64,000 nt of DNA, taken from Sporocytophaga sp. (GTDB lineage: Bacteria > Bacteroidota > Bacteroidia > Cytophagales > Cytophagaceae). Below, piece by piece: positions 35,420 to 41,271 of this stretch. The DNA lies in the NCBI RefSeq assembly GCF_017745095.1, contig NZ_JAGHZZ010000018.1, positions 62,001 to 126,000 on the forward strand. Reading direction: 5' to 3'. The translations under genes and the position numbers were made by a program. Below the pieces are notes generated by a model, which worked only from the letters and a program-made list of their open reading frames with translations, had not been told where the DNA came from and made no database searches. How positions within the stretch are numbered: position 1 is the stretch's first letter; every line of letters starts with the position of its first letter.

Positions 35420-35562
35420 ACAGCGGTTATAACGATCTGTTCTGTTAAAAATATACAAAAAAATAATAATGTAATTTTTTTTGTAGAATTTCACTTTTTT
35501 TTTTGAAAGAAAAGGAAAGTTTTATATTTTTACTTGTAAGTAAACAAAATTATCCAAGGACT

Positions 35563-35913
35563 GTGGAAGAGAATAAGGATCAAGAAAAAGTAGAAATTTA
35601 CTCTCAGAGAGTAAGAGCAGGGAAAAGAACGTATTTCTTTGACATTAAGTCAACACGTTCAAACGATTATTATCTTACGATCACTGAGAGTAAGAGGAGG
35701 TTTAAAGATGATGGGTATTTTTATGAGAAACATAAAATCTTCCTTTATAAAGAGGATTTTGACAAGTTTCTTGAAGCTTTAAAAGGTACCATTGACCATG
35801 TGAAAACCGAATTAATGCCTGATGTGGATTTCTCAAAATTTGAGGATAATGGAGAGAGAGACAGGGATGAGGAAGGTACTACGCCTTCAAGTGATGAATT
35901 AACTTGGGATTAA
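35563..35913 (+). CDS. PUR-alpha-like DNA/RNA-binding protein (DUF3276)
   Basis: EIYSQRVRAGKRTYFFDIKSTRSNDYYLTITESKRRF; in-frame GTG at 35563 preceded by AAGGA is a better start than TTG 35503. Confidence 0.88.
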   Translation: MEENKDQEKVEIYSQRVRAGKRTYFFDIKSTRSNDYYLTITESKRRFKDDGYFYEKHKIFLYKEDFDKFLEALKGTIDHVKTELMPDVDFSKFEDNGERDRDEEGTTPSSDELTWD

Positions 35914-36029: not shown

Positions 36030-37130
36030 ATGGGACTTCAGTGTGGTATTGTAGGATTACCCAATGTAGGGAAATCAACTTTGTTCAACGCACTTTCAAA
36101 TGCTAAAGCAGAAGCGGCTAATTATCCTTTTTGCACAATTGAGCCAAATGTTGGGGTGATTACTGTCCCTGACGAACGTTTAATTACGTTGGAACAGCTT
36201 GTAAATCCGGAAAAGGTATTACCAACAGTAATAGAGTTTGTTGATATTGCCGGTTTGGTAAAAGGTGCAAGCAAAGGAGAGGGGTTAGGTAATAAATTTC
36301 TTGCGAATATCAGAGAAGTTGATGCTATTATTCATGTTGTTAGATGTTTTGAAGATGAAAACATTGTTCACGTGGGTGGTAAAGTGGATCCTATTTCTGA
36401 TAAGGAAATTATAGATACAGAACTTCAACTTAAAGATCTTGAGTCTGTAGATAAGAAAATCCTTAAAGTAGAGAAAATGGCTAAAGCTGGTGATGCCAAA
36501 GCTAAAAAGGAACTAGCTATACTAAACCAGTTTAAACAGACTCTGGAGAGTGGGAAAAATGCAAGAAGTCTGCAGTTAAACAGTGAAGATGAGTTGGAAG
36601 CGGTGGCTGATTTACATTTGTTGACAATTAAACCTGTTATTTATGTTGCAAACGTAGATGAGGCATCTGTTATCAAGGGCAATAAATTTGTCGATACATT
36701 AAAAAATGGCGTAGCCGATGAAAATGCTCAGGTAATTATTGTTTGTGCGGCTATTGAATCTCAAATTGCTGAATTACAGGAAGCTGAAGAAAAGCAGATG
36801 TTCCTTCAAGAATATGGCCTTGATGAGTCGGGTTTGAATAAACTAATTAAAGCATCTTATAAATTACTCGATTTAATTACTTATTTTACAGCTGGTGTAA
36901 AAGAAGTGAGAGCTTGGACGATAAAGAGTGGTTGGAAAGCTCCTCAGGCAGCTGGTGTGATCCATTCTGATTTTGAAAAAGGATTTATTAAAGCTGAAGT
37001 AATTAAAATGTCTGATTACGAGAAGTTTAAAACAGAGTTGGCGTGTAAAGAAGCCGGTAAAATTTCAATTGAAGGAAAAGAATATGTAGTCGAAGACGGT
37101 GATATTATGCACTTCCGATTTAATGTTTAA
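36030..37130 (+). CDS. ychF: redox-regulated ATPase YchF
   Basis: CGIVGLPNVGKSTLFNALSNAKAEAANYPFCTIEPNVGVITVPDERL; C-terminal TGS-like domain. Confidence 0.98.
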   Translation: MGLQCGIVGLPNVGKSTLFNALSNAKAEAANYPFCTIEPNVGVITVPDERLITLEQLVNPEKVLPTVIEFVDIAGLVKGASKGEGLGNKFLANIREVDAIIHVVRCFEDENIVHVGGKVDPISDKEIIDTELQLKDLESVDKKILKVEKMAKAGDAKAKKELAILNQFKQTLESGKNARSLQLNSEDELEAVADLHLLTIKPVIYVANVDEASVIKGNKFVDTLKNGVADENAQVIIVCAAIESQIAELQEAEEKQMFLQEYGLDESGLNKLIKASYKLLDLITYFTAGVKEVRAWTIKSGWKAPQAAGVIHSDFEKGFIKAEVIKMSDYEKFKTELACKEAGKISIEGKEYVVEDGDIMHFRFNV

Positions 37131-37210
37131 AACAATTTTCCTTAACTTAGTGTTGTATCCAGGTAAAATAAAAAGTTTTTTATTAAACGATTTTTTAAAA
37201 TTATTAAGAT

Positions 37211-38008
37211 TTGAGAGTAAGAATAGTTTTCGGCTTAACAAACAAAGGGGCTTCGGTACCCTTTCACCATCAGTTTTTACTATCCGGGTTAGTAAATTCT
37301 GTTATGGACAGACACAGGATTGAGTTTCCTGATTTCGACTTATATAATTTCTCGGGTTTAAAAGGACAAACTAAAGTTGGTAAAGAAGGCTTGCATTTCT
37401 ATTCTAACAAAGTGACTCTTGTCTTTTCAAGTCCAAATGAAAAATATATAGATGTTTTCGTCAAGGCATTATTTAAAATGCCTCAGGTTGAAATCGGTAA
37501 GTTATTACTCGTTCCTCTCACCGTAGAAAGAGAAGCTGAACCTCAGCTTGCGAATGAGGTGAAGTTTATCTGTATTTCTCCATTGGTAATTATCAATCCG
37601 GAGGAAAAAGGTAGTGATCCTAAGAAGTTCATTAGTCCTTCTACAGATATGTTTTCAGATATGCTTTATGAAAGTACGATGAGTAGAATGGAAAAATCTA
37701 AAAGATTTACTCCTGAGGAAATTGCGTCTTTCTATAAATTCCAGATTGTTCCAGATAAAGACTATCTGACAAAGATAAGAGAGGAAGAAAAGAAATTTGC
37801 ACGTATTTTCCCTGTTTTTCATAAAGCTGAAAAATACGAGGTAAGAGGATATACGTTCCCTTTTACACTATATGCAGATCCTAAAGTACAGCAGTTTGTT
37901 TTTGATTGCGGCTTAGGATTTTATGCCTTTAAGGGCTTTGGTATGCTGGATATTGCTAATGCAGATCCGAACCAAAGAACTACTCCCTTCAATGTTAGTA
38001 ATGATTAG
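37211..38008 (+). CDS. Cas6-like RAMP superfamily endoribonuclease
   Basis: N-terminal MRVRIVFGLTNKGASVPFHHQFLLSGLVNSV and C-terminal glycine-rich CGLGFYAFKGFGMLDI match Cas6 two-ferredoxin-fold architecture; TTG start. Confidence 0.8.
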   Translation: MRVRIVFGLTNKGASVPFHHQFLLSGLVNSVMDRHRIEFPDFDLYNFSGLKGQTKVGKEGLHFYSNKVTLVFSSPNEKYIDVFVKALFKMPQVEIGKLLLVPLTVEREAEPQLANEVKFICISPLVIINPEEKGSDPKKFISPSTDMFSDMLYESTMSRMEKSKRFTPEEIASFYKFQIVPDKDYLTKIREEEKKFARIFPVFHKAEKYEVRGYTFPFTLYADPKVQQFVFDCGLGFYAFKGFGMLDIANADPNQRTTPFNVSND

Positions 38009-38009
38009 T

Positions 38010-38046
38010 AATATAAACGGGAGAAGATTAATTTCTTCCGTTTATA
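38010..38046. terminator. bidirectional terminator-like inverted repeat between convergent genes
   Basis: AATATAAACGGGAGAAG ... TTTCTTCCGTTTATATT; includes the stop codon of the minus-strand gene. Confidence 0.6.
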
Positions 38047-39341
38047 TTAATAGATTTGTAGCCTACCACAATATCTGATCTCGCTCCTGGTGGTCTGTAA
38101 TAGACTATAAAATCGTATAAGTTCTGAGTAGCGAAATGAGATCCTTCAAAAAAAACTTCATCGCTGATTTTGCTTCCTTGTGGGACAAAAGCGTATCTGT
38201 AATTGTAATAGCCTTGTTTTAATAAGGTTTTCAATTGATATGTGTTTGTTTCACTGTTAAATAATAATTCCGAACCAGGCCCTAACTCATAATTATTGAA
38301 TGATCCTACCACAAAAACTTTACCTGGCATGGGTTCCTTCGTGTCCAGTGAGAAATTTGTGAATATATAATCAGGTTCCACTTCTTTTGTCTTGGTTTCG
38401 TAAAGCTCCACAACGAAACGTCCATCTATATCAGGATAAAGTGCGTAGGCTTGATTATTAGTGCTCAAATCTCTCTTTAAAAAAGCTTCTGCAAAATCGG
38501 GTTGGATGAATATCTTATCTACATTAATATCATTAAACTTGACACTCCTTGTACTAAAAGTCCTGAATTCATTTCCACCAGGAAAGTTATTTTCAAGGTT
38601 AAAGAAATTATAATCCAGTTTATGGATATCCTCCTGTACATATAAAGGTTGTAAATTGTCTATAACTTTGTCCCATCTGTTGTTTTGGCGAATAACTACC
38701 TTTACAGAACCTCGGGGATTTATAATTTCCATATTCGGATACAGTATACTAAAATCCAATTGTTGATGGGTGAAGCGTTGGTTTATTCCAGTAGAAGGTT
38801 TTTGCTCTGCTAATATTGTTACTTTGCTATCAAAAACAATAAACCTCTTGGTTAAAATAAAATCTGATTCATCTCCGCTTCTATATATTACCGCAAGGTA
38901 ATTGCCTGTGACTTTTACCTTAGGTAAAGTTATTTTATAATGAGTATAAGGAATTCGTGTTCCTATAGACGACTTTCTGTCCTCTATAAAATTTTCATTG
39001 TAGCCATCAAGATATTGAACTGTACTAAGGCTTGAGATTGTCCAATCGGCATTGCAGTGAATGATTTTCAGGTATAAGCTTGATGTGTTTTCTCCTAACT
39101 CGTCAAATTCCAAAATCATTGGCACATTCTGAATTAACGGTACAATGGGAGTGTTCAATTCATCATTGGTTCCTGAATTAGCAGGATATAGCAATACCGT
39201 TTTAAAGGTTTCTTCGTATACAAAGTCTCTGGTAAGTAGAGTCTTGTCCTGCGATTTTAAATTACTGCTAAAAGTTAATTGAATAATGCTCGAAATAAAT
39301 AGGAGACAAGAAAGTCTCCTTAAAAATTTAGATTTTGTCAT
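38028..39341 (-). CDS. DUF5103 / type IX secretion system Plug-like protein
   Basis: YEETFKTVLLYPANSGTNDELNTPIVPLIQNVPMILEFDELGENTSSLYLKIIHCNADW and NPRGSVKVVIRQNNRWDKVIDNLQPLYVQEDIHKLDYNF; start MTKSKFLRRLSCLLFISS at 39341, immediately after the ABC-F stop. Confidence 0.85.
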   Translation of the reverse strand: MTKSKFLRRLSCLLFISSIIQLTFSSNLKSQDKTLLTRDFVYEETFKTVLLYPANSGTNDELNTPIVPLIQNVPMILEFDELGENTSSLYLKIIHCNADWTISSLSTVQYLDGYNENFIEDRKSSIGTRIPYTHYKITLPKVKVTGNYLAVIYRSGDESDFILTKRFIVFDSKVTILAEQKPSTGINQRFTHQQLDFSILYPNMEIINPRGSVKVVIRQNNRWDKVIDNLQPLYVQEDIHKLDYNFFNLENNFPGGNEFRTFSTRSVKFNDINVDKIFIQPDFAEAFLKRDLSTNNQAYALYPDIDGRFVVELYETKTKEVEPDYIFTNFSLDTKEPMPGKVFVVGSFNNYELGPGSELLFNSETNTYQLKTLLKQGYYNYRYAFVPQGSKISDEVFFEGSHFATQNLYDFIVYYRPPGARSDIVVGYKSININGRN

Positions 39342-39342
39342 T

Positions 39343-41271
39343 TTATTTTTTGTCTTCAAGCTCTTGGATTTTTTCTGCATATTCATCCCATTTCTGTTGC
39401 TCTTCTTCGAGTTGCTGACGAAGCTGTTCATATTTAGAGTTGGTATCTGCAAGTTTTTGGACATTACTATAAACGTCCGGCTTAGCCAATTCTTCTTCTA
39501 CCTTTACTTTTTTATTTTCAAGCTCAGTAATTCTAGCTTCAATTTTATCAAGCTGATTTTGCAGACTCTTTAGTTCTTTTTGAATGTCCTTTCCTGGTTC
39601 AATGTTATTTTTAACTGGATTTTCTTCCGACTTCTTAGTAACAGAAGGCCTTGCAGGAGCAGTTGCCGGATTTTTAATCCTTTGTTCCTGCCAGTAGCAG
39701 TATTCTTCGTAGGTTCCAGGATACTCTTTTATTTCATTGTCTTCTATAAACCAAATTTTATTAGCTACCTGAGACACAAAATGTCTGTCGTGTGAAATTA
39801 CAATATAGGTTCCTTCATACTGCTGCAGAGCCTGTATCAGAATATTCACAGAGACAATATCCAAGTGGTTGGTTGGCTCATCAAGTAAAAGAAAATTGGC
39901 TTCTGAAATCAGTGTTTTGGCAAGTGCTACTCTTGATTTTTCGCCTCCAGATAATACTTTAATTTTTTTGAAAACATCATCATTGGAGAAGAGAAAACAA
40001 CCCAGTACTGTACGAAGCTCTAACTCTGATTTGTCACTGCCAGCTTCTTTAAGCTCATCCAGCATAGAGTTGTTAACGTTTAGGGATTCAAGCTGGTGCT
40101 GTGCAAAAAATCCTTGAAGAACATTGTGTCCTTCTGTTCTTTCTCCTTCAATATTTTCAGTACCTGCTATAATTCTTAAAAGAGTAGATTTTCCTTTACC
40201 ATTTGCACCGATCAAGGCTATTTTATCTCCTCTTTCAATGATTGCATGTGTATTCTTCAAAATATTAAGGTCTCCATAAGACTTTGAAATATTTTTTAAA
40301 GAGAGAATTGTTCTTCCCGGATTTTTGCTGAATTTAAATCTGAAATTTACTCTTGCATTTTCTTCCACGACATCCTCAATCAAATCCATTCGCTCCAGGG
40401 ATTTAACACGAGATTGCACTTGTCGTGCTTTGGAAGCTTTTGCTTTGAATCGATCTATAAAGCGCTCAGTCTGGCGGATTTTGGATTGCTGATTTTCAAA
40501 TGCACCCTTCTGAATCTCGGCCCTTAGTGCCTTTTCTTCTAGGTAGAATTGATAGTTGCCAGCATAAATATGAAGATTTTGCTGAGTTACTTCTACAACT
40601 GTTTTTACAGTATTATCCAGGAAGTATCTATCGTGAGATACCACAATGATAGCCCCTTCATAGCTTTCAAGATATTTCTCTATCCATTGGATGGAAGGAA
40701 GATCAAGGTGGTTGGTAGGCTCATCAAGAAGAAGGAGTGATGGTTTTGCCAAAAGGAGTTTAGCAAGCATAACCCGCATTCTCCAGCCTCCGGAAAATGT
40801 TTTTAAAGGTTTCTCTAAATCTTTGGTAGAAAAGCCCAGCCCCTCTAATATTTCTTCTGCTTTGGATTGAATTGAATAACCATCCAATGCTTCAAATCTT
40901 TCCTGAAGTTTCGTTAGTTTGTCAACTAGAGAGTCCTTATAATCGGTCTCCATTTCTTTTAGAACTTCATCAATTTTCTTTTGAAGGGCCATAGCTTCTT
41001 CAAAAGCCTGCATAGCTACGTGTAATATGCTTTCCTGAGAATCATAGGAGAGAAGATCCTGATTAAGAAAACCAATAGTACATTCTCCACTCCTGGAAAT
41101 ATCTCCTTTGTCGGGCTTATACTCTCCTGTAATAAGGCGAAGCAATGTTGATTTGCCTGTACCATTGGCACCTATTAGTCCAATTCTGTCTTTAGGCTTT
41201 ATATGTAAGGAAACATCTTCGTAAAGTGGACGACTACCAAAATAGAAAGACAGATTGTTTATTGAGAGCAT
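39343..41271 (-). CDS. ABC-F family ATPase
   Basis: Two ABC domains: GANGTGKSTLLRLI / TFSGGWRMRVMLAKLLL and GANGKGKSTLLRII / VLSGGEKSRVALAKTLI; C-terminal coiled coil. Confidence 0.95.
   Translation of the reverse strand: MLSINNLSFYFGSRPLYEDVSLHIKPKDRIGLIGANGTGKSTLLRLITGEYKPDKGDISRSGECTIGFLNQDLLSYDSQESILHVAMQAFEEAMALQKKIDEVLKEMETDYKDSLVDKLTKLQERFEALDGYSIQSKAEEILEGLGFSTKDLEKPLKTFSGGWRMRVMLAKLLLAKPSLLLLDEPTNHLDLPSIQWIEKYLESYEGAIIVVSHDRYFLDNTVKTVVEVTQQNLHIYAGNYQFYLEEKALRAEIQKGAFENQQSKIRQTERFIDRFKAKASKARQVQSRVKSLERMDLIEDVVEENARVNFRFKFSKNPGRTILSLKNISKSYGDLNILKNTHAIIERGDKIALIGANGKGKSTLLRIIAGTENIEGERTEGHNVLQGFFAQHQLESLNVNNSMLDELKEAGSDKSELELRTVLGCFLFSNDDVFKKIKVLSGGEKSRVALAKTLISEANFLLLDEPTNHLDIVSVNILIQALQQYEGTYIVISHDRHFVSQVANKIWFIEDNEIKEYPGTYEEYCYWQEQRIKNPATAPARPSVTKKSEENPVKNNIEPGKDIQKELKSLQNQLDKIEARITELENKKVKVEEELAKPDVYSNVQKLADTNSKYEQLRQQLEEEQQKWDEYAEKIQELEDKK

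Follow-up and report, generated by a model that had tools for sequence, protein, structure and literature searches.

The window, a 64-kb stretch of a Sporocytophaga genome, contains an open reading frame (ORF) that encodes 265 amino acids without an internal stop, starts with TTG with no further in-frame start upstream, and is preceded by a U-rich leader (Table 1). Its product is a Cas6-type protein. Cas6 is normally part of CRISPR immunity, and the host belongs to the Cytophagales, an order of gliding bacteria. The first-pass annotation had described the gene as a solitary Cas6-like RAMP endoribonuclease gene among housekeeping neighbors, with no CRISPR array, cas1/cas2, or effector gene in the 64 kb. 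This picture of the surroundings was accurate: the neighbors are indeed ychF, a T9SS plug gene, and an ABC-F gene, and the window contains no cas gene, CRISPR array, or short-spaced direct repeats. An Rfam search over the same 64 kb returned tRNA only. A palindrome between the convergent cas6-like and plug genes (positions 38011 to 38047, ATATAAACGG..CCGTTTATAT) is probably a bidirectional terminator.

Table 1. Positions in the window of the cas6-like gene, its leader, its conserved protein segments, and its neighbors
Feature	Position	Strand	Remark
DUF3276 protein	35503..35913	+	Context; upstream neighbor kept in 69/80 near relatives
ychF	36030..37130	+	Directly upstream; same-strand neighbor in near relatives only
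U-rich leader, two T6 tracts	37171..37210	+	Immediately precedes the start; such a leader is enriched family-wide
Cas6-type RAMP protein	37211..38008	+	265 aa; member of the Cytophagales-specific stand-alone family
TTG start codon	37211..37213	+	GTG/TTG in 98/115 distinct family genes
R2-V3-R4	37214..37222	+	Predicted strand 1; both Arg invariant in 60 sequences
Residues 36-46	37316..37348	+	Place of LH..GY and the catalytic His in CRISPR Cas6; ~13 residues shorter, variable
K51-G52-Q53	37361..37369	+	Invariant in the family
KKFAR, residues 194-198	37790..37804	+	K195 and R198 invariant
EVRGY, residues 210-214	37838..37852	+	E210 and R212 nearly invariant; G213 and Y214 invariant
Gly-rich loop GLGFYAFKGFGM	37910..37945	+	Residues 234-245; RAMP hallmark
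T9SS plug protein	38028..39464	-	Context; convergent downstream neighbor

Judged by profile matching, the Cas6 identity of the ORF is far beyond chance. It matched Pfam Cas_Cas6_C at 1.2e-20 (score, 75 bits; cut-off, 23 bits), NCBIfam TIGR01877 at 6.3e-18 (over its equivalog cut-off), and PADLOC Cas6b at 6e-31, and a profile of the stand-alone family described below matched PDB Cas6 chains at 1.5e-14. The AlphaFold model of the 265-aa protein is a confident, ordered fold (pLDDT, 92.2; pTM, 0.89), and Foldseek placed it inside the Cas6/RAMP fold, with 3qjj, the PhCas6nc of Pyrococcus horikoshii (PH0350), first (E value, 6.8e-18), followed by 3ufc (4.5e-17), both ahead of the active PfuCas6 3i4h. 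The protein combines a Cas6 profile match, a tandem ferredoxin-like RAMP fold, and the C-terminal glycine-rich loop (GLG..KGFGM) that had been noticed on first inspection, so that its assignment as a Cas6-like RAMP protein stands.

In order to examine the active site, we aligned 60 members of the stand-alone family with PfuCas6 and 37 further Cas6 proteins from the phylum; the PfuCas6 letters used agree with the 3pkm stretch. Among the 37 CRISPR Cas6 proteins, the canonical triad (PfuCas6 numbering) was found as Tyr31 in 34, His46 in 35, and Lys52 in 34. All 60 stand-alone sequences lacked the His46 column together with the LH..GY segment around it, and the Tyr31 and Lys52 positions were not conserved among them. 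Along similar lines, an alignment-free measure, the median distance from the HQ motif to the FS motif, gave 25 residues for the family versus 38 for CRISPR Cas6. The N-terminal signature quoted in the first-pass annotation does belong to a Cas6 protein but lacks the catalytic segment; His35 of DRHRIEF is a local residue that does not lie at the Cas6 His46 position, and although some His occurs in this stretch in 23 of the 60 members, none is conserved. The protein has the Cas6 fold without the catalytic residues, as in noncatalytic Cas6 (Cas6nc), and does not have the Tyr31/His46/Lys52 triad of a catalytic CRISPR Cas6. The idea of a domesticated RAMP RNase has to be divided accordingly: domestication is backed by conservation, vertical inheritance, and the dN/dS ratio (see below), while an RNase working by the Cas6 mechanism is unsupported, because the catalytic segment is deleted family-wide.

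Loss of the triad is no proof of loss of activity, since SsoCas6 cleaves without a catalytic His by using basic residues (PMC3652601). For this reason, the chief rival reading is that domestication left an active endoribonuclease, which acts on a conserved cellular RNA from a relocated active site. Such a site could lie, for instance, at His20, which 98% of the family shares, or at some of the several Lys and Arg residues that are invariant. Nevertheless, we consider this reading unlikely, given that the whole His46 segment and the Tyr31 and Lys52 positions were lost together, that the His found in PfuCas6 at the His20 position lies outside its triad, and that the nearest folds are those of noncatalytic Cas6. 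The invariant polar or basic residues of the family (R2, R4, K51, Q53, K195, and R198), several of which are interleaved with hydrophobic residues along predicted strands, form a pattern that suits a charged beta-sheet face, and their predicted location would be consistent with RNA binding in the interdomain cleft.

The INDEPENDENCE of CRISPR was evaluated in the host assembly, which is 6.6 Mb and 99.97% complete. Searches of this assembly for Cas1, Cas3-HD, the RAMPs family, DevR/Cas7, and a second Cas6 all came back empty, as did a search for arrays with ATTGAAAC-ending repeats, a partial test that rang in 5 of 10 control genomes outside the genus. No array with effector genes, either nearby or served by the protein, was found in the window or in the host genome, within the limits of this partial array search. 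The suggestion that the protein processes crRNAs encoded elsewhere in the genome did not hold up, because no class 1 effector was found there and because carriers with class 1 CRISPR often own a His-containing Cas6; with Cas1, Cas3-HD, RAMPs, DevR/Cas7, second Cas6, and ATTGAAAC-ending arrays all negative, a CRISPR system acting in trans in this genome was discarded as a candidate. Of three sister species, all of which carry the gene at ≥97% identity, two show a Cas1 with a low score and the third shows none.

Across the order, 33 of 77 carriers had no Cas1 and 51 of 77 had no class 1-like machinery, scored as Cas1 above 150 bits, RAMPs, or DevR. Within the host's own family, the gene was present in 18 of 19 genomes and class 1-like machinery in 2 (2 of the 18 carriers). 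Several class 1 CRISPR carriers keep a second Cas6, 22 to 27% identical to the first and in most cases no more than ~10 kb away from Cas1 or an array. In one genome (G053), Cas1 lies ~9 kb from the gene, with unrelated genes between. Carriage was positively associated with Cas1 (Fisher P = 0.0009) and more weakly with class 1-like machinery (Fisher P = 0.08), both values being uncorrected for shared ancestry. The association with Cas1 could be taken to indicate an accessory CRISPR protein, that is, a trans-acting Cas6 or a repeat-RNA chaperone that serves transient CRISPR systems and waits in CRISPR-free genomes. PhCas6nc binds repeat RNA. Moreover, type III loci are often served by a Cas6 encoded at another place (PMC12669027). 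We regard such a role as improbable, and less likely than that of an RNase with a relocated site: most carriers, in the order as in the host's family, are without class 1-like machinery, those with a CRISPR Cas6 keep both proteins (22 to 27% identical), and the vertical inheritance and low dN/dS ratio of the gene are unlike those of CRISPR components.

Although solitary at its locus, the gene is not so in evolution, being one of hundreds of orthologues. Of 118 genomes sampled from the host's order, 77 had such an orthologue, and these carriers were spread over many GTDB families (E value of 3e-48 or better; 39 to 100% identity). Among GTDB species genomes, 367 relatives were detected, the nearest being a Sporocytophaga metagenome-assembled genome (97%); among the best 80 of the 367, the labels were mainly those of the Cytophagales or its families, with a few other Bacteroidota labels. 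When 393 genomes were sampled evenly over the phylum, the stand-alone family was confined to the host's order, and scores were bimodal, with family members at ≥380 bits and everything else at ≤76 bits. Some families of the order, such as f11 and f13, lacked the gene entirely in the 118-relative and 393-genome samples; some gene-less families include near-complete genomes and have Cas1.

The 60 family members formed one clade against 38 other Cas6 proteins (100/99). The gene tree needed 14 changes for 13 family labels, whereas shuffled labels needed at least 26, and tree distances of the cas6-like gene correlated with the ychF distances for these loci (Spearman coefficient, 0.43; 0 of 999 permutations as high). 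Within the genus, dN/dS values were 0.02 to 0.06 (about 0.04), indicating strongly purifying selection, and 27 positions were invariant across the 60 sequences. No family member was found in the viral contigs and phage records searched, and plasmid records contained a single copy, on a 602-kb Bernardetia replicon; a mobile origin was rejected on these grounds. That replicon is nonmobilizable, and its copy (NZ_CP147018.1:328852-329631) is annotated as "CRISPR-associated endoribonuclease Cas6." With a tree that follows taxonomy, purifying selection, and no phage-borne copy (one plasmid record), the gene behaves as a vertically inherited, putative housekeeping gene, and the stand-alone family is monophyletic, Cas6 descended, and Cytophagales specific. 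One locus (L143; G057:C2) has a second, short Cas6-like protein (ORF L143_7, 222 aa) beside a CRISPR locus, also without the LH..GY segment; the tree places it beside the stand-alone family, but on long branches that may mislead, and it might mark the family's ancestor.

Given that no CRISPR machinery was found in the host genome, the gene could also be seen as the decaying remnant of a lost CRISPR locus. The intact frame had been read from the start as an argument against decay, and the comparison strengthens it: the frame is intact in carriers, dN/dS is about 0.04, 27 positions are invariant in 60 sequences, and the predicted fold is confidently ordered. Since conservation and dN/dS contradict it, decay was rejected, and we give it hardly any credence.

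Gene order in near relatives is well kept, running DUF3276, (transporter), ychF, and cas6, with a convergent T9SS plug gene. Conservation of the ychF-cas6 pairing, proposed as a check in the first-pass annotation, holds for the closest named relatives, where ychF is directly upstream in 73 of 80 loci and shares the strand of the gene in 74, but not for deeper families, in which the gene sits among other housekeeping genes and the pairing is lost. In three loci of family f9 (L157, L161, and L166), a Sua5/YrdC-like gene, identified by eye, takes the place of ychF near the gene, and in other divergent lineages rpoC or rplJ/rplA-like genes are near. Because the pairing is absent in deeper families, conserved gene order by itself cannot establish ychF as a partner in function, and the strength of the pairing in near relatives was not counted as functional evidence. 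The gene moved yet was kept, and its neighborhood is silent on function.

We then looked at translation initiation, for which the preference of the family for weak start codons (Table 1) can be set beside other genes. All 62 ychF starts were ATG under a pattern requiring M, and a looser pattern gave 53 ATG and 0 GTG/TTG with some mis-hits, so that this comparison is only indicative, because the scoring pattern requires M. CRISPR cas6 starts in the same test were mostly ATG. In the 40 nt before the start, 83% of the 115 family genes have a T5 run; the corresponding values were 31% (ychF) and 26% (generic ORFs), and of 234 windows taken further upstream, 77 had such a run. This enrichment was computed over related sequences and is uncorrected for relatedness. 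T-rich positions in the family leaders clustered near -26 to -21 and -11 to -7. Together, the starts and leaders suggest, at the level of sequence, controlled or low translation; some of the T tracts may instead belong to a terminator of the preceding gene. The leader was also considered as a CRISPR-like repeat (GTTTCAAT), but this was found in only 4 of 115 leaders and was dropped.

We propose that this Cas6-type protein has probably been domesticated as an RNA binder serving the cell and has given up cutting by the Cas6 mechanism. Several parts of this proposal are direct observations, namely, the Cas6 ancestry, the single clade, the agreement of inheritance with taxonomy, the purifying selection, the failure to find CRISPR machinery in the host, and the family-wide loss of the canonical triad. 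A Cas6-descended family would have been taken over for a cellular, CRISPR-independent job; by analogy with PhCas6nc, its two-domain Cas6 architecture would still bind RNA in the cleft between the beta-sheets. The bound RNA would not be cut by the Cas6 mechanism, and the protein would therefore work as an RNA-binding protein or chaperone. More weakly, expression might be low or autoregulated at translation initiation through the conserved GTG/TTG start behind the U-rich leader, which may itself be a binding site; autoregulation via the leader is speculative. A more far-reaching version, in which a dead Cas6 would be a core RNA-binding translation regulator of the order, outside immunity, that binds U-rich or repeat-like mRNA elements, including its own weak-start leader, seems to us doubtful, if conceivable.

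Noncatalytic Cas6 proteins are already known, as is the exaptation of CRISPR parts (PMC8730458). Inactive or noncatalytic homologues have been named PhCas6nc and PfuCas6nc (PMC3727216, PMC3652601), and PhCas6nc binds RNA between its sheets without activity (PMC3727216). PhCas6nc (3qjj) and PfuCas6nc (3ufc) are the nearest solved folds and among the best sequence matches of the Sporocytophaga protein, although only about 20% identical to it. They are archaeal paralogues in organisms with CRISPR, whereas the Cytophagales proteins are bacterial, stand alone, are passed on vertically, and in most carriers occur without class 1 CRISPR; their RNA binding is putative. With catalytic CRISPR Cas6/Cas6b (TIGR01877, PF01881), the family shares matches to the family models above cut-off, the Gly-rich loop, and the fold, but it lacks the His46 segment, does not conserve Tyr31/Lys52, and lies outside CRISPR loci. 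The exapted components considered from PMC8730458 resemble the present case in that Cas parts were recruited for other work, but they are multigene or RNA-guided, whereas the present family is a lone Cas6 passed on vertically in many families of one order, with neither array nor effector. Among open-licence papers, we found no report of an order-wide, vertically inherited stand-alone Cas6 that is mostly without class 1 CRISPR, and a search in passages of the 2025 classification paper (PMC12669027) did not find one either.

If the proposal is true, a single Cas protein would have become, through vertical inheritance, a fixed housekeeping gene in many bacterial families, showing a route from an immune RNA processor to a cellular RNA-binding factor. 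The automatic label "CRISPR-associated endoribonuclease Cas6" would then likely be misleading for several hundred genomes and could inflate CRISPR counts.
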